Below are positions 29,167 to 41,421 of a stretch of 64,000 nucleotides of DNA, in pieces. Numbering within the stretch: the first letter of the stretch is position 1; each line of letters starts with the position of its first letter. The notes under the pieces were generated by a model. The model did no database searches. It was given only the letters and a program-made list of their open reading frames with translations, and was not told the DNA's origin. This DNA is from Halorubrum sp. DM2 (GTDB lineage: Archaea > Halobacteriota > Halobacteria > Halobacteriales > Haloferacaceae): NCBI RefSeq assembly GCF_901686465.1, contig NZ_LR594487.1:1299650-1363649 (forward strand). The letters run 5' to 3'. The translations under genes and the position numbers were made by a program.

Positions 29167-31158
29167 TCACACCGGATCGGAGTCGCTGCTGATCTCGACG
29201 AGCGCTGGCCCGTCGTACGCGATCGCCTCCCGGAGCGCGTCGTCGAGGTCTGCCTTGTCGTCGACGTAAGCGCCGTGACCGCCGCAGTTCTCCGCGAACT
29301 CGGCGAATCTCGGGTTCACGAGGTCAGTCTGCCAGACATCCCAGCCGCCGGTGCGCTGTTCTTTGCTGATCTTCCCGAGTTCGTCGTCATTGAGCAAAAC
29401 GTGGGTGAGGTCCATGTCGTACTTGACGGCGGTCGTGAACTCGCTCATGTACTGCCCGAAGCCGCCGTCGCTGGAGATCGAGACGACCGGCCGGCCCGCG
29501 AACCGCGACCCCGGCTCCTGCGTGGCGGCCCAGGCTCCCAGCGCCGCGGGAAACGCGAACCCGATCGAGCCGAGGTACCCCGACATCAGCACCGACTGGT
29601 CCTCGGGCTCGAAGTACCGCCCGAACGCGTAGGTGTTGTTGCCCACGTCGACGGGGACGACCGCGTCGTCGGGGACGATCTGACTCATCGCCTCGAAGAC
29701 GGTCGCGTAGTTGACCCCGCGCTCGGCGGGCTGGTCGCGCCGGGTGGCCTTCTCGTCGCGCCAGATTTCCCAACGGTCGGCGAGCTCCTCGCGCTGGCTC
29801 TCGGCGGCGACGTCGGCGCCGTCGAGCCGGTCGTTCAGTTCGTCGACGGTGACCCCGATCTCGCCCCACACCGGCACGTCGACGCTGTGGTGTTTCCCCA
29901 GCGTCATCGCGTCGAAGTCGACGTGGATGATCGGCTTGTACTCCGCGATACCGGTGTGGTTCGAGAAGCTCGCGCCGAACACCGCGAGTAGGTCTGACTC
30001 GTTCATGAAATGGCTCGCGATAGGCGTACCCGACCGGCCGAGAACGCCCCCCGCGAGCGGGTGGGAATCAGGGATCTGACCTTTGGCCTTGAACGTCGTC
30101 AGGACCGGGCAGTCCAGGCGCTCGGCCAGCTCGACGACGGGGTCCATGTGGAAGCGGGCGCCGTGGCCGACGACGATGACCGGCCGTTCGGCCTCCGCCA
30201 GCAGCTCCTCGGCGTCGTCCAGCGCATCCGCGGGCGGGCTGATGTCCCGGTCGGTGATGCGCCCCTCGGGATCGGCCGGCTTGACGCCCTCGGCGGACTG
30301 GGTCTGGATCTCGTCGGGGAAGACCAGGTGCGAGACGCCGCGTTCGAGGACCGCGGTCTTCGCGGCCCGCGTAGCGAGCTCGGCGGAGTCCGAGTCGTGC
30401 AGCACCGTCGCCTCGAACGCGGCGACATCGCCGTAGGCGGCCTCGAGGTCGACCTCTTGGAAGTTGCCCGTACCCAAGACCTGCGACTCGACCTGGCCGG
30501 TCAGCGCGATCGTCGGCGAGCGGTCGACGTTGGCGTCCCACAGCCCGGTGAGCATGTTCGTCGCCCCGGGGCCGGCGATGGAGAAGCAGGCCGCCGGCCG
30601 GCCGGTGAGCTTCCCGTACGCCGAGGCGGCGAACGCGGCGGCTCCCTCGTGCCGGACGCCGTAGTACGTGAGGTTCCCCGTCTCGGCCTCCCGGCGGAGC
30701 GCGTCCGCCAGTCCGAGGTTCGAGTGGCCGACGATGCCCCAGACCTGTCTGACCCCCCAGTTGACGAGCGTCTCGGCGACCACGTCCGAGACGGTTCGCT
30801 CGTGCGGCTCCTCCTCGGGGAACCCGACGTAGATCCCGTCCTCGCGTTCCTCGACCGGGAACGTCTCCACGGCGTCGTCGTGCGATCCGGGAGTCTCGCC
30901 GGTCAGCGGGTCGAAGTCCCACCCGTGCCAAGGACACCGGAGGCAGCCGGTCTCGATCGATCCCTCGCCGAGGGGGCCGCCTTGGTGCGGACAGCTGTTG
31001 TCGAGCGCGGCGTACTCCCCGTCGTAGTGTGTCATCGCGACGGTGGTGCCGCCGCAGCTCACCGCCTCCACTCTGCCCTCGGGTAACTCGCCCGGCGAGA
31101 GCGCCTTGTGCCAAGTGACGTTCCCCGCCGGTTGACCGGGAGAATCGTTCGTTCCCAT
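29167..31158 (-). CDS. Rieske-thiamine diphosphate enzyme fusion (acetolactate synthase/pyruvate oxidase-like)
   Basis: The 663-residue protein starts with a Rieske [2Fe-2S] domain (Cys56, His58, Cys75, His78 in CPHQGG and CPWHGWDF). The remainder is a complete thiamine-diphosphate enzyme of the acetolactate synthase/pyruvate oxidase superfamily: the activating Glu in VRHEGAAAF, a central cofactor domain, and the Mg/ThDP motif SSDGGFGQYMSEF ending with NDDELG. Such enzymes decarboxylate 2-oxo acids. An attached Rieske domain suggests electron transfer from the carbanion-enamine intermediate, as in an oxidase or acceptor-linked dehydrogenase. The substrate is not evident. ATG 31158 precedes the Rieske domain directly. 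Confidence 0.85.
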   Translation of the reverse strand: MGTNDSPGQPAGNVTWHKALSPGELPEGRVEAVSCGGTTVAMTHYDGEYAALDNSCPHQGGPLGEGSIETGCLRCPWHGWDFDPLTGETPGSHDDAVETFPVEEREDGIYVGFPEEEPHERTVSDVVAETLVNWGVRQVWGIVGHSNLGLADALRREAETGNLTYYGVRHEGAAAFAASAYGKLTGRPAACFSIAGPGATNMLTGLWDANVDRSPTIALTGQVESQVLGTGNFQEVDLEAAYGDVAAFEATVLHDSDSAELATRAAKTAVLERGVSHLVFPDEIQTQSAEGVKPADPEGRITDRDISPPADALDDAEELLAEAERPVIVVGHGARFHMDPVVELAERLDCPVLTTFKAKGQIPDSHPLAGGVLGRSGTPIASHFMNESDLLAVFGASFSNHTGIAEYKPIIHVDFDAMTLGKHHSVDVPVWGEIGVTVDELNDRLDGADVAAESQREELADRWEIWRDEKATRRDQPAERGVNYATVFEAMSQIVPDDAVVPVDVGNNTYAFGRYFEPEDQSVLMSGYLGSIGFAFPAALGAWAATQEPGSRFAGRPVVSISSDGGFGQYMSEFTTAVKYDMDLTHVLLNDDELGKISKEQRTGGWDVWQTDLVNPRFAEFAENCGGHGAYVDDKADLDDALREAIAYDGPALVEISSDSDPV

Positions 31159-32822: not shown

Positions 32823-33425
32823 TTACTCCTCGGAGAAGGATTCCCAGAAGACGTCCGTCAGTTCCTGGTCGGGGTTCGCTTCGAGGTAGTCCCGCTTCGT
32901 CAGGTTCGCGTCCTCGATGAGAGAAGCCGCCTCCCCGGCCCAGACGTAGAACCCGATGAGCGTCTCGTAACGCATCCGTTCGAGGTCGGTCGAGTGGAAC
33001 ACGTTGACGACGCCGCCGCCCTCTCGGTTCAACTCGGACCGTCGGAGCAGTCCGAGCTCGACGAGCCTGTTGAGGTAGCGCGTGACGGTACTCCGGTCGT
33101 ACCCCAGCTGGTCGGCCACCTCGTTCGCCGAGAGCGGCCCCTCGCCGATGACGCAGAGACAGATGTCGAGTCCGGCCTTCGGAAGGCCGAACGCCTGTAG
33201 CAGGACCTGTTTCACGTCCGGCGGTTTGACCGTCATGTCGACCTCTCTCACCGGCTCCATCGGCTGCCCGTGACAGGACATCGGCGGGTTGTCGCGACCT
33301 ATTCCGAGGACGACGTTGTCGCAGTCGGGGTCGGAACACTCGTAGATGTCGTACCGATCGTTATCGGGATCGTACTGGACTTCGTCGGGTTGCTCGTCGG
33401 ACTGAGACGAACGTCCGTCAGTCAT
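32823..33425 (-). CDS. Winged-helix regulator with N-terminal zinc-binding motif (copy 1)
   Basis: The 200-residue protein has an acidic N-terminal tail, a cysteine cluster (Cys30, Cys35, Cys51 and adjacent His52) that can bind zinc, and a winged helix around residues 80-140 (PLSANEVADQLGYDRSTVTR). The C-terminal part is helical (TLIGFYVWAGEAASLIED). A close paralogue lies at 34792-35391. A purine-rich GGAGGAG about 12-18 bases before the ATG and a TATA-like TATTTATC at about 45 bases upstream support the start at 33425. It likely regulates nearby transport or sulfur genes, but no target is shown by the sequence. Confidence 0.8.
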   Translation of the reverse strand: MTDGRSSQSDEQPDEVQYDPDNDRYDIYECSDPDCDNVVLGIGRDNPPMSCHGQPMEPVREVDMTVKPPDVKQVLLQAFGLPKAGLDICLCVIGEGPLSANEVADQLGYDRSTVTRYLNRLVELGLLRRSELNREGGGVVNVFHSTDLERMRYETLIGFYVWAGEAASLIEDANLTKRDYLEANPDQELTDVFWESFSEE

Positions 33426-33502
33426 CGGTGATCTGCTCCTCCATTAGGTCGTCCGTCGGTCGGTACGCCGATAAATACCGTCCCTCTCGAGCCTTGGCGT
33501 CG

Positions 33503-33757
33503 CTACTCCGGGTCGACGATCGCCAGCTCGTCGGTGTCGAGGGCCAGCAGTTCCTCGCCGGTGATCGTGATCCGGACCCGTCCGTCCGGGTACGTTCGGA
33601 CCAGCTCGCACGCCGCGAGCCTGTCCAGATGCGCGTCGACCGTCCGTTCGTCGGCGCTCAGCGACGCCGCGAGCGCCGACCTCGTCGTCGTCTCCCGGCG
33701 GTCGGCGTCGCTCAACGCGGCCAGTCCCTCCAAGACGGTCCGTCTCGTCGCGGTCAT
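33503..33757 (-). CDS. Small winged-helix protein (copy 1)
   Basis: The 84-residue product is a minimal winged helix: TTTRSALAASLSADERTVD and HLDRLAACELVRTY, then a beta wing GRVRITITGEELLAL. It closely resembles the protein encoded at 35451-35723, and each is followed by a 200-residue zinc/HTH regulator on the same strand. The ATG at 33757 is chosen because upstream sequence is not coding-like. It might pair with the larger regulator as a heteromer; that is inference from the conserved order. Confidence 0.75.
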   Translation of the reverse strand: MTATRRTVLEGLAALSDADRRETTTRSALAASLSADERTVDAHLDRLAACELVRTYPDGRVRITITGEELLALDTDELAIVDPE

Positions 33758-33910
33758 GATCGAGAGTGATTGTGTCTCCGCTCGTCCCCAAACTCGGTGC
33801 CCGAGTCCGATTCGGCGGATCGTGACCGCAACGACGGCCCGGAGTGAATTGACTGCTCCGATGCCGGCCGAGAACGCCGTCGATCGACATCGTCTCATTA
33901 TTTTCGGGTG

Positions 33911-34795
33911 TCACGGGACGACGGTCAGGTGACCGGTCGCGGCCGTGACGACGAGCAGATAGAACGCCGTCCCGAGCGCAGCGCTCGTGACGACGACGAG
34001 GTCAGGATCCCGACGCGGAAGCGCCCGACTGACGACGGGAATTTCTGTTAACTCCGGCCGCGTCAGGATGCGGTTCATCGCGACGCCGAACAGGCCCACG
34101 AGGAGTGGACCGACGGCGATGCTGTTCACCGCTCGAAACAGCCGGCGAGCGGTGTCATCGTCGAGCGTGGCCGTCGCGACGGGACCGAGAACGGTCGCCG
34201 GATTCGGAAGCCACGACACCGCCCCGCCGTAGCTCGCGTAGAGGAACACGGTACCCCCGAGTGCGAACGCGAGGAGCTTGACGTGATTCCGACGAGCAGT
34301 CGGCAGCAGCCTCGGGACGAGGAACACCCCGACGAGGAAGACCGCGTTCATTCCGGCCCACGGCCCGACGTTCTGTATCGCGAGCGGAAGGCCCGTCGTC
34401 AGTATTCCCACGCTGAACCAGTCGAGGCTCATCAGTCGCGTGGTCGGACACGACCCCGAGAGAACCTGCTTGCGATGTACGGGGTGGATCAGGTGTACGG
34501 CGATCCTCGTGAGGAGGAACGTCGGTACGACCAAGAGATACGCGAGCAGGCGTACCTGAAGTCCCGCCGGCGTTGCGACCGCACCGATGGCAATCGCGGT
34601 CGAAAAGTCGAGGACGCCGTTCACAAACCAGAAACCGAGCAGGGACGGCGCGAACAGACAGCCGTTGAGTATCGCCGTCACGTGACCCGTCGAGTAGGAG
34701 AACTCCTGTGAGAGGAGGTCCCGCAGCGCCCCTCGAACGCCGTTCCCGATGTCGAGAAGGCGTGTGCGAAGGGCATGTGTCCGGTGTCGACTCAC
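33911..34795 (-). CDS. Polytopic membrane protein between duplicated regulators
   Basis: The 294-residue protein has about seven hydrophobic helices (for example LLAYLLVVPTFLLTRIAVHL, LLAFALGGTVFLYASYGGAV and VGPLLVGLFGVAMNRIL) and an N-terminal basic tail. Its GTG start overlaps the stop of the upstream 200-residue HTH gene (GTGA), so they are translated together. It is not a family I recognise. Being the only non-regulatory gene inside the duplicated HTH block, it may be the target or membrane anchor of those regulators. Confidence 0.65.
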   Translation of the reverse strand: MSRHRTHALRTRLLDIGNGVRGALRDLLSQEFSYSTGHVTAILNGCLFAPSLLGFWFVNGVLDFSTAIAIGAVATPAGLQVRLLAYLLVVPTFLLTRIAVHLIHPVHRKQVLSGSCPTTRLMSLDWFSVGILTTGLPLAIQNVGPWAGMNAVFLVGVFLVPRLLPTARRNHVKLLAFALGGTVFLYASYGGAVSWLPNPATVLGPVATATLDDDTARRLFRAVNSIAVGPLLVGLFGVAMNRILTRPELTEIPVVSRALPRRDPDLVVVTSAALGTAFYLLVVTAATGHLTVVP

Positions 34796-35391
34796 TTGTC
34801 GCGAAACGACTCCCAGAACATCCCGGGGAGTTCCTGATCCGGGTTTTCGTCGAGATAGTCCTGTTTGGTCACGTTCGCGTCCTCGATGAGCGCGGCGGCC
34901 TCGCCAGCCCAGACGTAGAAGCCGATCAGCGTCTCGCGTCGCATCCGTTCGAGGTCGACCGAGTGATAGACGTTGACCACACCGCCCGCTTCGCGGTTCA
35001 GCTCGGACCGCCGAAGCAGTCCGAGCTCGACGAGCGTATTGAGGTATCGGGTGACTGTGCTCCGATCGTAGCCGAGCGACTCGGCGACCTCGTTCGCTGA
35101 CAGAGGGCCTTCACCGATGACGCACAGACAGATGTCGAGTCCCGCCTTCGGCAGCCCGAAGGCCTGAAACAGTACCTGCTTGACATCCGGCGGCTTGACG
35201 CTCATCTCCACGTCAGTCACGCGCTCCATCGGCTTATCGTGACAGGACATCGGGGGTTCGTCCCGCCCCAGCGCGAGGACGATGTTATCACACTCGGGGC
35301 ATTCGAAGAGATCGTAGCGGCTGGACGTCGGATCGTACTGCACTTCGTCGGGCTGTGCTTCCTCGGACTGACTCGCCTCGTGGTCTACCAT
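34792..35391 (-). CDS. Winged-helix regulator with N-terminal zinc-binding motif (copy 2)
   Basis: The 199-residue protein is a close paralogue of the one at 32823-33425: same cysteine cluster (here Cys31, Cys34, Cys50, His51), same winged helix (PLSANEVAESLGYDRSTVTR) and same C-terminal helix. It differs mainly in the acidic tail. Its stop overlaps the start of the membrane protein gene by four bases. The strong similarity and identical neighbour on the 5' side (a short HTH gene) show a tandem duplication of a two-gene unit. Confidence 0.8.
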   Translation of the reverse strand: MVDHEASQSEEAQPDEVQYDPTSSRYDLFECPECDNIVLALGRDEPPMSCHDKPMERVTDVEMSVKPPDVKQVLFQAFGLPKAGLDICLCVIGEGPLSANEVAESLGYDRSTVTRYLNTLVELGLLRRSELNREAGGVVNVYHSVDLERMRRETLIGFYVWAGEAAALIEDANVTKQDYLDENPDQELPGMFWESFRDK

Positions 35392-35450
35392 TAGTTATTC
35401 ATCTCCGTTTGAGTGCCAATTACGTGGAGTGCGGTTAAACATCATCTCTC

Positions 35451-35723
35451 TCAGTACTCTCGGTGTGGCGTAGAGGCGTCGACGATCACTGCCTCGTCGG
35501 TATCGAGTTTGAGGAGTTGCTCGCCGGTGATCGTCACTCTCACGCGCCCGCCGGCCTCGCTTCGAGCCAGCTCGCAGGCTTCCAGTCCGTTCAAATGTGA
35601 TTCGACGGCGGACGTCTCTGCCCCGAGAGCCGTCGCAAGTGCTTCGATAGACGTCGTTTCTTTCCGCTCTGCGTCGCTCGCGGCGGCCAGTTGCCGTAGA
35701 ACGGCCCGTCTCGTGACGTTCAT
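35451..35723 (-). CDS. Small winged-helix protein (copy 2)
   Basis: The 90-residue product matches the 84-residue protein at 33503-33757 over its whole length (TRRAVLRQLAAASDAERKET, GRVRVTITGEQLLKLDTDE) with a short extra tail. It lies 10 bases downstream of the ATP-grasp gene and 59 bases upstream of the second zinc/HTH regulator, all on the same strand, so the genes may be one transcript. ATG 35723 is preferred as the paralogue starts at the same residue. Confidence 0.75.
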   Translation of the reverse strand: MNVTRRAVLRQLAAASDAERKETTSIEALATALGAETSAVESHLNGLEACELARSEAGGRVRVTITGEQLLKLDTDEAVIVDASTPHREY

Positions 35724-35733
35724 CTCACGCGGC

Positions 35734-37119
35734 CTATTCCTCCACCGTGTTACTGATATCGAGCGTGTAGGCTTCGAGGACATCTCGACCGAGCAGGACG
35801 GGATAGGTCATCTCCGTCCGATCGGTGATACTGGCCGTGACGGTCCGCCATCGCCCGTTCAAGCACAGGTCCACGTCGACCAGCGGGCGGGTTTCCGTCT
35901 CGCTTCCCGTCCCCGACCGAACCTGTGTCGTTCCGACGAGCGGCCCGGCACCGATTCGACCGGCGAGATCCGTGTCGATACTGGTCCGTTCGGCACCGGT
36001 ATCCGATTTTGCGACTACCTGTTCCGCTCCGTCACGACCGTTGATTCGTATTCGAGAGGTGTAACCGAGCACGCCGTCGTCGCCGCTCTCCTGCACGAGC
36101 GGCGGTTTGCAATCCGGCACCGAATCGTCTAACGTCGATTCCAATTCGACGATCTGCGACTGATCAACGCCACCGCCAACTCGCTCGATAGCCAGGCGAG
36201 CGATATGCGGGGCCGCAGAGACGCCGGTCGCCGAGAACAGGCCCTTGAACCCTGCTGTCGCGTTGACCTCGAGAACGAACCACTCGCCGTCGACGGGCAT
36301 CAGATCGACGCCGGCCAGATCCAACCCCAGAACGTCCGTTGCCTCTTTCGCTATCTGTCGAGGCCGTACACCGAGTTCGTTCGTGATTCCTTCGACCTCA
36401 CCGCCGAGGGCGACGTTGGTTCGCCAGTCCCCAGCGGGGGCGTGGCGTCGCATCGCGCCGACGATTTCCCCACCGACCACATAGACACGCACGTCTGAGG
36501 GCCGATTATCACTGTCTTCTAAAAATTCTTGGACGAACGACTGTTCGTCGTCGATCTTGGGACCGATCGGGTCCGTCGGCGAGACGACCGACATCTGCTG
36601 GCCGTTCGTCCCGATCGTGTGCTTGTGTGCGGCGTTGGCGGGAAGGTACTCGGGCCACTCCTCGACGGTTCGCGGCGACCGTCCGAAGTAGGCGTCCGGA
36701 ACCGGGAGGCCGGCCGCCGCGAGCTTCGCCCCCGCTCGATACTTGTGTAGCGTGTCCGTCACGGCCTGCGAACCGTTGACGACGGGTGTCGTCTCCTCGT
36801 AGAGCGCGGCCAGCTGGAGGTCTTCGAGTTGGTGATCGCTTTTGGTAAACAGCATCCGATTCACGAGGACGTCGACGCGCGGCGAGAGGTGGACCGTCCC
36901 GTCCTCGATCCACGACGTGACGTTCTCGTTCCGGATCCAGACGGGCTCGTGTCCCAGCGCCCGAACGGCGTTGAGGATCGCCTTCGTCTCCTTGCTGTTG
37001 TGCGTGCTCAAGACGCCGACGCGAATCGCCCCGCTGGCGGTCTGTGACTCGTCGGCGCTCACGGATCGACCCGCTTCGGTCGTGTTCTCTCGTCCGGGTG
37101 AATCTGAGGAGGCAGTCAT
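35734..37119 (-). CDS. RimK-like ATP-grasp ligase fused to a retropepsin-like protease domain
   Basis: The 461-residue protein has an N-terminal RimK-type ATP-grasp ligase (about residues 30-305): a pre-ATP domain, the KHTIGTNGQQM nucleotide-binding segment and the metal-binding end LEVNATAGFKG. Its C-terminal 130 residues are a retropepsin-like domain with SDTGAERTS near residue 372 and VLLGRDVLEAY, as in the RimK-associated ATP-dependent protease family. RimK-type ligases add amino acids such as glutamate to protein or small-molecule carboxylates. In many organisms the two domains are separate neighbours. A divergent M14-like hydrolase gene completes the known gene association. Confidence 0.85.
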   Translation of the reverse strand: MTASSDSPGRENTTEAGRSVSADESQTASGAIRVGVLSTHNSKETKAILNAVRALGHEPVWIRNENVTSWIEDGTVHLSPRVDVLVNRMLFTKSDHQLEDLQLAALYEETTPVVNGSQAVTDTLHKYRAGAKLAAAGLPVPDAYFGRSPRTVEEWPEYLPANAAHKHTIGTNGQQMSVVSPTDPIGPKIDDEQSFVQEFLEDSDNRPSDVRVYVVGGEIVGAMRRHAPAGDWRTNVALGGEVEGITNELGVRPRQIAKEATDVLGLDLAGVDLMPVDGEWFVLEVNATAGFKGLFSATGVSAAPHIARLAIERVGGGVDQSQIVELESTLDDSVPDCKPPLVQESGDDGVLGYTSRIRINGRDGAEQVVAKSDTGAERTSIDTDLAGRIGAGPLVGTTQVRSGTGSETETRPLVDVDLCLNGRWRTVTASITDRTEMTYPVLLGRDVLEAYTLDISNTVEE

Positions 37120-37234
37120 ATGAGGTTCTCACGCCTCTGTTGGTGATATCGGTCATTACGGGTTTTGGGAGCGTGTAACACGATTACACGCCCTCTGTAG
37201 GTTTACCCCGAACGGGGTCGCTATCTTCGTGATG

Positions 37235-38254
37235 ATGACCGATCAGGAGGCTGAAGCGTTCACGTTCGATGGTGGTCGCGTCGATCCGGGAGAGACGGAG
37301 GAGTTCCGCTATCCGGTAACCGAAACGTATCTCGGTGATCCAGTTCGCATTCCAGTCACGATCATCAACGGCCCACGACCGGGGCCGACGGTGTTTCTTT
37401 CGGCTGCGATTCACGGCGATGAACTCAACGGCATCGAAGTCGTTCGGGAAGTCGCTCAGGAGTGGGATCACTCGGATATCTGTGGAACGCTCGTCTGTTT
37501 GCCCGTCCTGAACGTCCAGGGTTTCGTCACCCAAGAACGGTATCTCCCCATCTACGAGCGCGACCTCAATCGTGCCTTCCCGGGGAAACAACACAGTACG
37601 GGATCGAACCGGATCGCCTACCAGATATACCACAATTTCATCGAACCCTGTGATTTCGGCCTTGATTTCCACACATCGACGCGCGGCCGGACAAATATGC
37701 TTCATGTTCGTGTAGACATGGACGACGAGGGTGCCGCCCGACTCGCGCGAGCGTTCGGGACGAACCTCATCATGGCCGGCGAAGGCTCCTCGGGAATGCT
37801 TCGTCGCGAAGCGACAGACGAGGGGATTCCGACGATCACCTTGGAGATGGGCGAGGCGCACCGCTTCGAGCGAGAGTTGATCGACCACGCGCTGGAGGGC
37901 GTCCGGAGCGTCTTCGCTGAATACGGTATCTATCAACAGGAGACGGTTCGGTGGCCGGGGTGGCGAACCGTTATCGGCGACTGGAGCGAAAAGACGTGGC
38001 TCCGGGCCGATTCCGGGGGGATAGTTGATATGTACTACGAACAGGGCGATCTGGTTCACGAGGGAGAGACCATCTGTCGGATCACGAACCCGTTTAAGTC
38101 CGACGCGACGGTCGTCGAGGCGCCGTTCACCGGGCTCCTCGTGGGCGTCCTCGAAAATCCGGTCGTCTATCCGGGGAACCCCCTCTGTCACTTCGTCAAG
38201 ATCGGAGAGATGCAGGAGCGTATCATCGAAGCGGGCTCCGGCGCACACGGGTAG
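37235..38254 (+). CDS. Succinylglutamate desuccinylase/aspartoacylase-family (M14-like) hydrolase
   Basis: The 339-residue protein is a zinc carboxypeptidase-fold deacylase. Zinc ligands are His60 and Glu63 in AAIHGDELNG and His146 in LDFHTSTRG; Glu204 in ITLEMGEAH is a candidate catalytic base. A C-terminal beta domain (about residues 255-335) is typical of the group. It would remove an acyl or amino-acid group, perhaps the one added by the divergent ATP-grasp enzyme. GTG 37229 and ATG 37232 precede the chosen ATG 37235 in frame, so the exact start is uncertain by two residues. The next gene starts two bases after its stop. Confidence 0.85.
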   Translation: MTDQEAEAFTFDGGRVDPGETEEFRYPVTETYLGDPVRIPVTIINGPRPGPTVFLSAAIHGDELNGIEVVREVAQEWDHSDICGTLVCLPVLNVQGFVTQERYLPIYERDLNRAFPGKQHSTGSNRIAYQIYHNFIEPCDFGLDFHTSTRGRTNMLHVRVDMDDEGAARLARAFGTNLIMAGEGSSGMLRREATDEGIPTITLEMGEAHRFERELIDHALEGVRSVFAEYGIYQQETVRWPGWRTVIGDWSEKTWLRADSGGIVDMYYEQGDLVHEGETICRITNPFKSDATVVEAPFTGLLVGVLENPVVYPGNPLCHFVKIGEMQERIIEAGSGAHG

Positions 38255-38256
38255 CC

Positions 38257-38778
38257 GTGGACGTCGTTCGCTGGGACCGGGTCGGCGAGTGGAACCGGAC
38301 GTGGGCGCTCGCGGCGGTGTTCGGCGCGGCCTCGGTGCCGTGGACGTACGCGTTCGTGGCGGGCCTACAGATTCCCCTGTGGCCGTCGTTCATCGCCTCC
38401 GCGACCTTCTACGCCGCCGGAGAAGGGTTGGACGGACTCGCGCGCGGCTACGCGAGCAACGCCGCGGGGATCGCATACGCCGCGCTCACGCTCGCCGTCG
38501 TGGAGGGACTCCTCGGCGGTGGAGTCCTCGCGCTCAGCGTCGTCGTCGGCGCGTTCATGTTCCTCGCGAGCCTCCACGAGTTCGTTCCGCTGCTGTCGTT
38601 CACGCCGGGCGCGTTCTTCGGGTACGCGACGCTGTTCAGCGTCCACGCCGCCGGAGCGACGGCGTTCGGTCTCACCGGACTGCTCGGCGAAACGGTCGCC
38701 GCAGCGGTATCGATGCTCATCGGAGCCGTCATCGGCCTCGTCACCGCCGAAGCGAGTTCGACGCTCGACGAACGGTGA
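38257..38778 (+). CDS. DUF1097-like membrane protein
   Basis: The 173-residue protein has about five transmembrane helices and the Gly/Ala-rich sequence of the DUF1097 family (for example VVVGAFMFLASLHEFVPLL and GAFFGYATLFSVHAAG). It starts with GTG two bases after the stop of the M14-like hydrolase gene, so they are probably one operon. Transport of the hydrolase's substrate or product across the membrane is possible; no direct evidence is visible. Confidence 0.65.
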   Translation: MDVVRWDRVGEWNRTWALAAVFGAASVPWTYAFVAGLQIPLWPSFIASATFYAAGEGLDGLARGYASNAAGIAYAALTLAVVEGLLGGGVLALSVVVGAFMFLASLHEFVPLLSFTPGAFFGYATLFSVHAAGATAFGLTGLLGETVAAAVSMLIGAVIGLVTAEASSTLDER

Positions 38779-39036: not shown

Positions 39037-41166
39037 TTAGTCTAGGGTGTTCGTCTGTCCGGGGACGCCGCGACCCTCGTAGAAGTCACCGCTCCACTGG
39101 CTGATCCAGATCTCCTGGTTCGAGAGGTACAGCGCCATCTCGGTGTCGAAGGTGTCGTCTGTGACCGCCCATTCATCACTTTCGGTATCGTACTCAACCT
39201 CCCGGTTGTAGACGGCCGCCTGCCCGAACTCGCCGCCGGCCATCGGCGGCAGCGGGAGCGTGAACTCGGCGTTCTCGTCCCGAGAGTTGGGTCGTTCGGC
39301 TCGCTGGAGCCGCCCGCGGTTGAACGTCTGGTTGAAGAAGGACGCGTACTGCGACTGGACCTCCGGTCGGTCGAGCAGCACGTCGGCGGCGTTCAGTCCG
39401 CCGGTGATGTCGCCCGCGTCCCGGGCGGTGATCGTGTACGTCGAGTCGTCCGGCCCGGACGCGAACGTACCGGCGTCGTCGTCGTACAGCTCCTCGGTGA
39501 GGTAGCCGAGCACGTCGTCCGCCGTGCCCGCGTGGTCGACACCGTCGATCTGCGAGGCCCATAGCAGCCCCTGTCCGACGACTCCCTGCGTCGCGGCCTG
39601 GTTTTCGACGCCGTTATCGACGCGACCGTTGCCGTCGAGGTTTGACTCGATGCGACCGGCGAGGCCGTCGGCGTAGTCCGCGGCCGCGCCCCGGAGCTGG
39701 TCTTTGTCCGTCTGCGTCCCGAACCAGCCGATCGCGCCGAGCAGCTCGCCGGCCAGCCGCGTGTTCCCGAGGTCGGCGGGATCGACGGCGTTCATCATCG
39801 TCTGTCCCATCCCGTTTGTGAGCATCTGGATGTTCTCCGCGGGGATCAGCGGCTCGGGGTTCTCGTAGCCGAACCAGCCCCCCTGTGCGAAGCTGTTGAG
39901 GTTCGAGAGGAACCACAGCATCGCGGAGTGGTGGCGCGGGCGCGGCGTCTCGTCGATCAGTCCCTCGCCCGGTCGGAACGCGGAGCCGAGCAGGAGGTTC
40001 TCGTCGTTCAGCCGGAAGTTGCCTCCCTGCTCGGGGACGAGCGAGAAGGCGGTCCCGACCTGCGCCATCGTCGAGAGCACCATCGCCCGGAACAGCGGGG
40101 CGAGGGCGGGCGGGAGGACCTCCGCGTGGTCCTCGAAGTTCTTCGCCCAAGTGATCCCCTTGAGGTGGGTCCAGCCCAGCGAGGAGGGACTGACCGTCAT
40201 CGACGACCGCGAGCGGTCCCACGTCAGCGTCCGGGCGTCAGGTCGCCCGCCGTCGCCGTCGAAGACCGGCTGCTCGGTGAAGTGGGGGTCGCCCTCAGTG
40301 AACGGCGCCATGTTGAGGTTCGGCTCGATGACCGGCGGCCGGTCGGCGTCGGCGGCCTCGACGATCGCCGGGAACCGCTGCTCGAACTGCTCCTGCTGCT
40401 GGTCGTTGGCGGGGAAGATGATCCCGTTGCCCGACAGCGTGATCGTCGTGCTCATGTTGTACAGCGAGTACCAGTACGAGTCCCACGTGCCATCGGTCCA
40501 GCCGTAGCTCGCCGTCGGCGCCTCGACCTCGACGCCGGCCAGCTCTAGCAGGTCGGCCAGCCCGTTGCTCTCGGCGCTGTCGAGGTCCTCGATCGGGGCC
40601 GTCCCCGGTCCGGTCGCCGCCTCGCCGACGATCACCAGTCCGACCATCCCCAGCCCGCGGTGCGGTCGACAGTAGTAGTCGTAGACGCCCGGCGTCTCGA
40701 AGGTGTGCTCGAAGGTCCCCTCGGACATCGTTCCGGAGTCGAACGGTTCGGCCGCCTCGGGAATTCGCAGCACGGCGTCCGTCTCCGGGTGATACGCGGT
40801 CGCCGAGTGGCTGCCGCTCGCGATCTCCCACGTGACCGTCGCGCCCTCTTCGACCCACGCGACGGCGGGCGAGAAGACGTTCTGGCCCGCCCCCTGATCG
40901 GCGTCGAGCGACAGCGCCTCGACCGTCGCCGACCCCTGGAGGTCGTCGGGACCGCCGAGCACGTCCGCGCCCGGCACCGACTCGTCGTCGGTGCCGTCTG
41001 TCCCGTCACCGTCGTCCGACCCGTCCGTCCCGTCATCACCGTCCGATCCGTCGGCGCCGTCGGCACCGTCGTTGTTGCCGCCACACCCGGCCAACCCGAC
41101 CGCCGCGCCCGCACCGAGTATTTGCAACAGCCTTCGCCTGTCAGTGTCTCGTATGGTCCGTGTCAT
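39037..41166 (-). CDS. Tat-exported lipoprotein with cupredoxin domain and large C-terminal helical domain
   Basis: The 709-residue protein has a twin-arginine signal (RRRLLQ) and lipobox ending at Cys28, then a linker of Gly-Asp repeats. Residues 85-182 form a cupredoxin: copper ligands are probably His120, Cys166, His169 and Met174 (YCRPHRGLGMVG). The remaining 520 residues are acidic with repeated helical pairs, reminiscent of an (alpha/alpha) toroid, and I do not recognise a family. An extracellular redox enzyme with a built-in copper electron carrier is the natural reading. ATG 41166 is placed right before the signal peptide; a longer frame is arginine-rich. Confidence 0.75.
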   Translation of the reverse strand: MTRTIRDTDRRRLLQILGAGAAVGLAGCGGNNDGADGADGSDGDDGTDGSDDGDGTDGTDDESVPGADVLGGPDDLQGSATVEALSLDADQGAGQNVFSPAVAWVEEGATVTWEIASGSHSATAYHPETDAVLRIPEAAEPFDSGTMSEGTFEHTFETPGVYDYYCRPHRGLGMVGLVIVGEAATGPGTAPIEDLDSAESNGLADLLELAGVEVEAPTASYGWTDGTWDSYWYSLYNMSTTITLSGNGIIFPANDQQQEQFEQRFPAIVEAADADRPPVIEPNLNMAPFTEGDPHFTEQPVFDGDGGRPDARTLTWDRSRSSMTVSPSSLGWTHLKGITWAKNFEDHAEVLPPALAPLFRAMVLSTMAQVGTAFSLVPEQGGNFRLNDENLLLGSAFRPGEGLIDETPRPRHHSAMLWFLSNLNSFAQGGWFGYENPEPLIPAENIQMLTNGMGQTMMNAVDPADLGNTRLAGELLGAIGWFGTQTDKDQLRGAAADYADGLAGRIESNLDGNGRVDNGVENQAATQGVVGQGLLWASQIDGVDHAGTADDVLGYLTEELYDDDAGTFASGPDDSTYTITARDAGDITGGLNAADVLLDRPEVQSQYASFFNQTFNRGRLQRAERPNSRDENAEFTLPLPPMAGGEFGQAAVYNREVEYDTESDEWAVTDDTFDTEMALYLSNQEIWISQWSGDFYEGRGVPGQTNTLD

Positions 41167-41390
41167 ACGATAACAACTTCGGGAACTGGGCGTATGATGC
41201 TGTGTTCGTCGTGTACCCTCACCGCCTATCGGCGATAGAATTATTAACACGAAACGGACGGCGGTGTCGTCTCGACCGCGAGTGACGACGCGCTCCTGCC
41301 GTCGGGCTCGGCTCCCGGTCGTGGCCGACCCGAGAGTTCGGTCGCGCCCACCGATCCGATGCTGCGTGTCGGACGAACGGCCGCCAAACA

Positions 41391-41421
41391 CTCTTTATAA
41401 TATCGGGTCTGTGATCGGTAG
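41391..41421 (+). promoter_or_regulatory. TATA-box promoter of the aldehyde dehydrogenase gene
   Basis: CTCTTTATAATATC at 41391-41404 is a very good archaeal TATA box whose centre lies 25 bases before the ATG at 41422. Transcription would start at or right beside the start codon, that is, a leaderless mRNA. Confidence 0.65.

Follow-up and report, generated by a model that had tools for sequence, protein, structure and literature searches.

To our knowledge, the poly-glutamylation of proteins has been little studied in archaea. In bacteria, the Rim system of Pseudomonas fluorescens combines a RimK ligase with the retropepsin RimB and is known to act on the C-terminus of a protein; Escherichia coli RpsF, the acceptor of RimK, ends in Glu-Glu (...GDSEE). 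RimB leaves 4–5 Glu on RpsF, and a 'reset' protease still to be found is needed (PMC7343187). According to PMC11957791, RimK-like ligases also occur where a suitable RpsF is missing, and RimBK hybrids, in which the RimB domain is N-terminal to RimK, are found mainly in Flavobacteriales and Rhodobacterales. RloA of Pseudomonas aeruginosa, a further RimB-like retropepsin, cleaves RimB substrates in vitro (PMC12239564).

Here, we compare with these systems a locus in a 64,000 nucleotide stretch of the genome of Halorubrum sp. DM2 (hereafter, the window). We tentatively propose that two of its genes form a module that writes and erases glutamate chains at a C-terminus, and that the acceptor is most likely the Glu-Glu end of the ligase–retropepsin fusion protein itself. 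In a search of the open-access literature, neither the haloarchaeal fusion nor its Glu-Glu end was the subject of a paper, though one may exist, and the fusion may be mentioned in the survey of amidoligases by Iyer et al. 2009.

The ligase–retropepsin fusion

The gene at 35734–37119 (minus strand) encodes a protein of 461 aa made up of a RimK-like ATP-grasp ligase followed by a RimB-like retropepsin, as judged from the open reading frame, Pfam, curated profiles and a structural model. PF08443 (RimK) matches residues 165–308 with 84.3 bits (cut-off 21) and PF05618 (Zn_protease/retropepsin) matches residues 393–448 of the same chain with 41 bits (cut-off 27). In an AlphaFold2 model built from 80 sequences (mean pLDDT 87) both domains are folded, and the retropepsin domain, which had a pLDDT of <50 in an earlier model from 11 sequences, became confident. 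The ATP-grasp domain, residues 32–316 (36172–37026, minus strand), is delimited by PF08443 and by structural alignment to RimK 7qys_E (Z 30.1, rmsd 2.2, 277 residues aligned), and the nearest structures are those of RimK, one entry including RpsF, and of ArgX/LysX with LysW. The retropepsin domain, residues 350–454 (35758–36072, minus strand), is delimited by PF05618, the strands of the model at 350–454 and phmmer matches to 9g59 and 9g58. Because the ATP-grasp domain fills the lists of structure matches, the retropepsin fold rests on Pfam and phmmer.

The first-pass annotation had described a ligase and a retropepsin in one 461-residue chain facing a hydrolase, and the open reading frames, PF08443, PF05618 and, for the hydrolase, PF24827 all agree with this. 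It had also accepted that loss of the retropepsin Asp or of the ATP-grasp residues in homologues would overturn the proposal, and both proved to be conserved. K166, Q197, R233, N235, D272 and N286 are present in 122/122 fusions and E284 in 121/122, while D373, in the retropepsin active-site motif Asp-Thr-Gly-Ala (residues 373–376; 35992–36003, minus strand), is kept in 121/122; a PF05618 score above the cut-off goes together with the DTG motif.

Scores against the curated profiles fall below the cut-offs. The ligase reaches 134.4 bits with the RimK subfamily TIGR00768 (cut-off 143.4) and 69.1 bits with the RimK equivalog NF007764, 30S protein S6 glutamate ligase (cut-off 331), and the retropepsin reaches 12.2 bits with the RimB equivalog NF052261 (cut-off 200). 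As the ligase is below the curated RimK cut-offs, its donor and acceptor could differ from those of RimK. The reactions of the two domains would follow by analogy with their relatives, ligation to a C-terminal Glu being taken from RimK and ArgX/LysX and the cutting of poly-Glu from RimB. An enzyme that makes free poly-alpha-glutamate or a small-molecule amino-acid conjugate, primed by the Glu-Glu end or making no use of it, and with its product recycled by the hydrolase, would be in keeping with the action of the RimK relatives CofF and MptN on coenzymes and with the stimulation of RimK by RimB to form free poly-alpha-L-glutamate (PMC11957791). However, the ligase scores only 56 and 109 bits with the CofF and MptN equivalogs (cut-offs 300 and 350), and a purely small-molecule enzyme is not expected to conserve a protein end, making this reading improbable.

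The fusion had been implied to be a peculiarity, but it prevails across the order and is near-universal there: of 81 genomes sampled, 74 have the retropepsin domain, and with one listed exception the frames are as long as expected of the fusion. A match in Vibrio campbellii, considered as a bacterial fusion with the same domain order, was rejected because it extends over two genes, one for RimK followed by one for the retropepsin; an apparently longer fusion of 624 aa (L013/L055) was set aside as unrelated sequence interrupts its retropepsin part.

The hydrolase and the neighbouring genes

The fusion gene is separated by the intergenic region between the two divergent starts (37120–37228) from a gene on the plus strand (37229–38254; ATG at 37232 or 37235 are possible alternative starts) for an AstE/aspartoacylase-type zinc hydrolase of 341 aa. 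It matches PF24827 (AstE_AspA_cat) with 162.6 bits (cut-off 25) and falls well short of the profiles for AstE (TIGR03242; 23.6 bits, cut-off 305.65) and DoeB (TIGR02994; 95 bits, cut-off 402.7). H62, E65, R115, H148 and E206 are invariant in 86/86 relatives, and we take H62, E65, H148 and E206 to be the zinc ligands and catalytic Glu of the AstE/AspA family, which breaks the amides of acyl amino acids. An orthologue is present in all 131 family genomes that have the fusion versus 4 of the 17 that lack it, a split that was read by eye from tables, and in a second genome set the figures are 14/14 and 0/7, respectively. The hydrolase is hence a conserved partner of the fusion. A second divergent pair lies in the same genome (G000:C1:601050-603495; 48 % identity for the fusion and 71 % for the hydrolase), and for this reason the pairing is not due to chance. 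The invariant residues and the co-occurrence make the hydrolase a candidate for the partner that would remove glutamate.

The chemistry of the hydrolase family would also suit a LysW-like carrier in cis, with an amino acid or amine loaded on the gamma-carboxyl of the enzyme's own terminal Glu, processed there and released by the hydrolase. The nearest structures include ArgX/LysX with LysW, and the LysW of the Halorubrum sp. DM2 genome, encoded beside ArgX/LysX, ends in Glu. Against this, the ligase scores 93.8 bits with the LysX profile (cut-off 275.6), none of the most frequent neighbours across 64 tabulated loci was recognised as a processing enzyme of such a route, and a carrier cycle of one residue leaves no place for a poly-Glu protease domain; we consider it distinctly improbable.

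The hydrolase gene is followed by one for a DUF1097 membrane protein (38257–38778, plus strand; PF06496, 68.7 bits, cut-off 24.6), to which movement of the product had been attributed. Among the loci compared, this arrangement recurs only in Halorubrum tebenquichense, and with just two species sharing it the role of product exporter was rejected; the gene adjoins the module without being conserved in it. Two regulator genes on the minus strand (34792–35783) immediately downstream of the fusion gene, for a small HTH protein (35451–35783) and a Sta1/Lrs14-like regulator (34792–35391), belong to a tandem duplication and may be accessory. In the neighbour survey, relatives of the latter adjoin the fusion in 5/64 loci and are near it in 7/64.

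The C-terminal Glu-Glu end

The last two residues of the fusion, 460–461 (35737–35742, minus strand), are Glu-Glu and form the proposed acceptor end. The first-pass annotation did not mention this end, in our view the most telling feature of the locus. Tails were counted in fusions of 430–500 aa, with one entry per identical last 200 residues, giving 122 distinct intact fusions. Loci with broken or short frames (L045, L057, L085 and L091; also L013/L055) were left out, as were L109 (707 aa) and L024 (561 aa), though both end in Glu-Glu, and L144 and L151, for which the wrong start had been picked and which both read through to Glu-Glu; L161, with a frame ending early (...DVGS), was retained and counted as a miss. 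The named loci favour near relatives because they are the best 80 of 317 relatives; to correct for this bias, a second set was picked by hand from the genomes of the order-wide survey, in most cases with one or two loci from each genus.

Glu-Glu is the end of 105 of the 122 fusions and Glu the final residue of 116, leaving 17 that do not end in Glu-Glu and six that do not end in Glu; thinning to one fusion per 70 % identity gives 25/26. In a subset of 85 proteins, the last two positions have entropies of 0.34 and 0.46 bits, compared with 2.4–3.4 bits at the next thirteen, and the tail past LLGRD is 15–38 residues long with 17 different lengths. Each of the four possible GAA/GAG codon pairs is used, as is each of the three stop codons.

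Haloarchaeal proteins are acidic, Glu and Asp making up 8.2 % and 7.9 % of residues in the neighbouring genes, and the Glu-Glu end might reflect no more than the acidic surface that halophilic proteins have, unrelated to catalysis. However, only 27 of 1001 neighbouring genes, and 6 of 73 among those with acidic tails, encode a Glu-Glu end; within the same last 15 residues of the fusions, Glu-Glu makes up 200 of 1586 other adjacent pairs (12.6 %) versus 86 % at the end; and short, barely acidic tails such as ...DISNTVEE still end in Glu-Glu. This explanation is, in our estimation, very improbable indeed.

The conserved Glu-Glu end is the reason for placing the acceptor tail on the enzyme itself, and the nearest structures, RimK and ArgX/LysX, act on a protein C-terminal Glu. 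The Glu-Glu end of E. coli RpsF, the different ends of five stand-alone archaeal RimK proteins and of a Thioclava RimBK, the tight co-occurrence of the hydrolase and the Glu-Glu kept by a paralogue that has lost its retropepsin motif (L160, below) also speak for this reading. In the cycle that we propose, the ATP-grasp domain would use ATP to couple a free amino acid, most likely glutamate, through an amide to the Glu at a protein C-terminus, and with the fusion's own Glu-Glu end as acceptor, in cis or on a neighbouring subunit, the enzyme would tag itself with poly-glutamate. The retropepsin domain would clip the chain once it is long, and the divergently encoded hydrolase would take off the leftover residues one by one and reset the end. 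The tag might serve as a state switch, a polymer primer or a timer. We infer the use of the enzyme's own tail, glutamate as the added residue and the exo-role of the hydrolase from the features described above. The shorter tails may perhaps be unable to reach the ligase active site in cis; that of the window fusion extends about 7 residues past the last strand of the AlphaFold2 model. Of the two options in the first-pass annotation, an amino-acid-conjugated compound or the modification of a protein tail, the second is the better and can be sharpened, the likely tail being the enzyme's own.

The conserved end could instead serve docking or inhibition. RimK and ArgX/LysX modify another protein, as seen in the structures and in PMC11957791, and the fusion may act in trans on a haloarchaeal counterpart of RpsF, its own Glu-Glu being a docking, product-mimic or autoinhibitory element at the ligase or retropepsin site. 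The same source has RimB recognising poly-Glu, and the Glu-Glu end could therefore occupy the retropepsin site; it also reports that the RimBK of D. psychrophila cut poly-Glu and did not glutamylate the RpsF offered, a result that counts against self-tagging. However, when the neighbours were sorted into 15 protein clusters, the fusion had a Glu-Glu end in 55/64 and the runner-up in 2.8 %, so that none of the 14 other clusters, which cover only genes near the fusion, has a conserved Glu-Glu end. Furthermore, the paralogue L160, with NPAH in place of DTGA and the listed ATP-grasp residues intact, ends in LEE, which argues against a role for Glu-Glu in the retropepsin site. Action in trans is thus rather unlikely, though it is the alternative that we take most seriously. 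The paralogues L159 and L162 (K126E) and L079 (E284K) also keep Glu-Glu despite changes in the ligase, and the end is therefore not strictly tied to an intact ligase.

Returning to self-tagging, a wider form of the proposal, which we put forward with slightly more reserve, is that across the haloarchaea a single polypeptide would be glutamate ligase, poly-glutamate protease and acceptor tail, and that the tail would be reset by a hydrolase devoted to it and encoded on the opposite side. It would then work as a molecular counter or switch complete in itself, or as a polymer synthase that primes itself, with a logic like that of glycogenin. Were this so, the union of ligase, eraser and substrate in a single chain would make the enzyme an autonomous post-translational switch of a rare form. 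The Glu-Glu end is a concrete candidate acceptor in a tractable archaeon such as Haloferax volcanii, where the PF05618 search also gave a match. The AstE-type hydrolase, given its strict co-occurrence with the fusion, is an equally concrete candidate for a 'reset' enzyme of the sort that PMC7343187 describes as lacking.

Comparison with known systems

ArgX/LysX share the ATP-grasp fold and ligate to the C-terminal Glu of a protein, but their carrier, LysW, is a separate small protein, a retropepsin is not involved, and the LysX profile is not matched here at its cut-off. RloABC resembles the locus in having a RimB-like retropepsin together with an ATP-grasp protein; however, RloA is separate and secreted and the set includes a transglutaminase-like membrane protein, RloB (PMC12239564), whereas the haloarchaeal retropepsin is in the ligase chain and none of the 9 window proteins scanned is of the RloB type.

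The pairing of a RimK-like ligase with a RimB-like retropepsin is that of RimK/RimB, but the haloarchaeal enzyme is one chain in the order ligase–protease with a built-in Glu-Glu end, its domains score far below what the equivalog profiles of RimK and RimB require, and an AstE-type partner is encoded opposite. In the bacterial RimBK hybrid (D. psychrophila DP2392; PMC11957791) the two matching domain types are likewise fused. The haloarchaeal order is the reverse, with the ligase first and the protease last, placing it outside the definition of RimBK, and the RimBK of Thioclava (L132), the one bacterial RimBK compared, ends in RKA whereas most haloarchaeal fusions end in Glu-Glu.

The first-pass annotation rightly noted that ligases, retropepsins and hydrolases of these types are known as neighbours, since five archaeal genomes from elsewhere in the phylum, presumably those of methanogens (L121–L125), have a retropepsin–RimK–AstE row that shares its domain types with the haloarchaeal pair. 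The five stand-alone RimK proteins end in RGKG rather than Glu-Glu, and that of L121 scores 479.5 bits with the S6 ligase equivalog (cut-off 331), which the haloarchaeal ligase does not reach. These rows consist of three separate genes on one strand, whereas in the haloarchaea the ligase and retropepsin are fused and the hydrolase is divergently encoded.

Locus and neighbouring genes

The window lies in a haloarchaeal chromosome (G000:C1:1299650-1363649), and the nearest named relative of the locus is that of Halorubrum tebenquichense (L040), where the fusion is 98 % identical. The fusion gene (35734-37119, minus strand) encodes 461 residues that include a RimK-like ATP-grasp domain and a C-terminal retropepsin domain of the RimB/RloA type (PF05618). 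The gene for an AstE/aspartoacylase-type zinc hydrolase (37229-38254) runs divergently from the fusion gene, the two listed starts lying 109 bases apart, and is followed by one for a DUF1097 membrane protein. The first-pass annotation had described this arrangement correctly.

Elsewhere in the window, a 663 aa protein (29167-31158, minus strand) carries a Rieske [2Fe-2S] domain (61.7 bits) at its N-terminus, fused to a complete thiamine-pyrophosphate enzyme of three domains; to our knowledge, this is an unusual fusion of redox domains. A two-gene unit is duplicated in tandem (32823-33898 and 34792-35783, minus strand), with Sta1/Lrs14-like regulators that are 78 % identical and small HTH proteins that are 60 % identical over 82 residues; the protein encoded between the units (33911-34795) has no Pfam match. 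A large protein (39037-41391, minus strand) has a single plastocyanin/azurin-type copper domain (PF00127) in its N-terminal third, and its >500 other residues match no Pfam family. The same genome encodes another RimK-like ligase, of approximately 297 aa (L004, G000:C1:1424331-1424906), which at 127 bits falls under the RimK subfamily cut-off and reaches no named equivalog cut-off.

Distribution, types and linkage to the hydrolase

PF05618 matches were found in 138 of 392 genomes in the phylum sample and in 74 of the 81 sampled genomes of the order. In haloarchaea, a fused ligase and retropepsin is the rule. Among the matches listed, those in the order were in open frames of at least 444 aa, one broken copy excepted, and those outside it in frames of approximately 100-300 aa; hence, the retropepsin is there a separate gene. 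In five genomes that belong to the phylum but not to the order, and are presumably those of methanogens, separate retropepsin, RimK and AstE-type genes follow one another on the same strand. One of these genomes (L121) encodes a RimK that scores 479.5 bits against the S6 ligase equivalog cut-off of 331, and the haloarchaeal ligase domain, at 69.1 bits, lies well below it.

The divergent pair is present twice in the genome, the second copy being the more usual one, and the copies share 48 % (fusion) and 71 % (hydrolase) identity. Only seven of 148 family genomes, this one included (G000, G138, G142, G004, G122, G118 and G088), had a fusion at least 70 % identical to the window's among the matches listed, and relatives of the window type are also found on plasmids. 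In a tree built by a quick method with SH-aLRT support and no bootstrap, six window-type rows form a supported group (98) nested in a group of 15 (99), and 57 core-type rows lie apart from both. A third type (L049, L050 and L011, from Halorubrum and a relative), 52-55 % identical to the window's fusion, has a NucS-like endonuclease gene alongside instead of the hydrolase. In the 52-60 % identity class, five of seven fusions end in Glu-Glu.

The hydrolase is linked to the fusion. When genomes were divided using the search tables, all 131 of the 148 family genomes with a full fusion had a hydrolase orthologue (best E < 1e-150), compared with four of the 17 without (G031, G072, G087 and G120; 70, 83, 93 and 79 % complete, respectively; Fisher p 1.6e-15, kinship ignored). 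A second set, comprising 21 genomes, had it in 14/14 with the fusion and 0/7 without. The hydrolase gene is near and divergent at 54 of 80 named loci (the best 80 of 317 relatives) and, in the set spanning the order, at 23 of 41; most of the remainder are second copies, contig ends or members of one family (f4), where the hydrolase is more distant but within approximately 5 kb in 11 of 14 genomes. In one f4 locus (L133), polysaccharide-flippase-like and GNAT genes intervene. By-eye naming at 64 loci from among L040-L119 placed a DNA-glycosylase-like gene on one side of the core pair in 21 and, from the commonest upstream pair, succinate dehydrogenase-subunit-like genes on the other in 14.

Catalytic residues and the Glu-Glu end

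In 122 distinct fusions, K166, Q197, D209, R211, R233, N235, D272 and N286 are invariant, E284 is present in 121 and K126 in 120. D373 of the retropepsin DTGA motif is found in 121, the sole exception being a paralogue (L160) in which NPAH replaces DTGA and the listed ATP-grasp residues are intact. H62, E65, R115, H148 and E206 of the hydrolase, which we take from the aspartoacylase family to serve zinc binding and catalysis, are invariant (86/86 distinct hydrolases).

Inspection of the C-termini revealed that nearly all fusions finish in Glu-Glu. The first sets yielded 85 distinct intact fusions, of which 74 end in Glu-Glu and 81 in Glu, the last two positions having entropies of 0.34 and 0.46 bits against 2.4-3.4 bits for the preceding thirteen. 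The stretch past LLGRD varies (15-38 residues, 17 different lengths), 70 different last-12 sequences occur, and all four Glu-Glu codon pairs and all three stop codons are used. Across the order, 33 of the 41 loci have this end, with broken or mis-started copies left in the total, and in all sets together Glu-Glu ends 105 and Glu 116 of 122 fusions. The p-values of the control comparisons below ignore kinship, and the better guide is the thinned counts (25/26 at one per 70 % identity, 11/12 at one per 60 %) together with a tree of 72 rows, on which 11 changes suffice to explain the pattern.

In the flanking sequence of the named loci, 27 of 1001 further genes end in Glu-Glu, as do six of 73 flank genes with acidic tails; gene calling was by a simple script, so this background includes some false genes. 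Among 15 clusters of at least 10 proteins, the fusion cluster had this end in 55/64 and the next best in 2.8 %. Elsewhere in the final 15 residues of the fusion proteins, neighbouring residue pairs are Glu-Glu in 200/1586 cases.

A possible self-modifying ligase and known systems

The solved structures nearest to the ATP-grasp domain are RimK, one entry with RpsF, and ArgX/LysX with LysW; thus, the nearest families extend a protein at its C-terminal Glu by a residue. The LysW of this genome has a C-terminal Glu, and its gene adjoins that for ArgX/LysX. RpsF of Escherichia coli, which RimK extends with glutamates (PMC11957791, PMC7343187), ends DDAEAGDSEE. As the fusion has a Glu end of its own, this end may be the acceptor. 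Five stand-alone archaeal RimK end in RGKG and a RimBK encoded on a Thioclava plasmid, the one example compared here, in RKA. L160, with its retropepsin motif lost, still ends LEE, which links this end more closely with the ligase than with the protease; however, L159 and L162 (K126E) and L079 (E284K) keep Glu-Glu with a conserved ligase residue changed, which counts against such a link.

By analogy with their relatives, the two domains would ligate residues and cut chains. We infer that the ligase domain lengthens the fusion's own Glu-Glu end, probably with glutamate, and that a neighbouring subunit could serve if the window protein's tail should prove too short to reach its own active site; long chains would then be trimmed by the retropepsin domain, as by RimB. 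AstE breaks an N-acyl bond to release glutamate, which in formal terms removes a Glu from a C-terminus, and the hydrolase may take off the remaining residues. According to PMC7343187, 4-5 glutamates remain after RimB has acted, and the system requires a 'reset' protease that is yet to be identified. Of the roles first suggested, modification of a protein tail was the better half, and transport can be set aside.

The open-access literature searched yielded no paper on a haloarchaeal fusion variant with a Glu-Glu end. The fusion belongs to a known kind, the Rim-type ligase-protease system, and RimBK (PMC11957791) is a bacterial fusion of both domain types, though in the opposite order. The haloarchaeal protein differs further from the Rim-type system in its built-in Glu-Glu end and its strictly co-occurring AstE-type partner.
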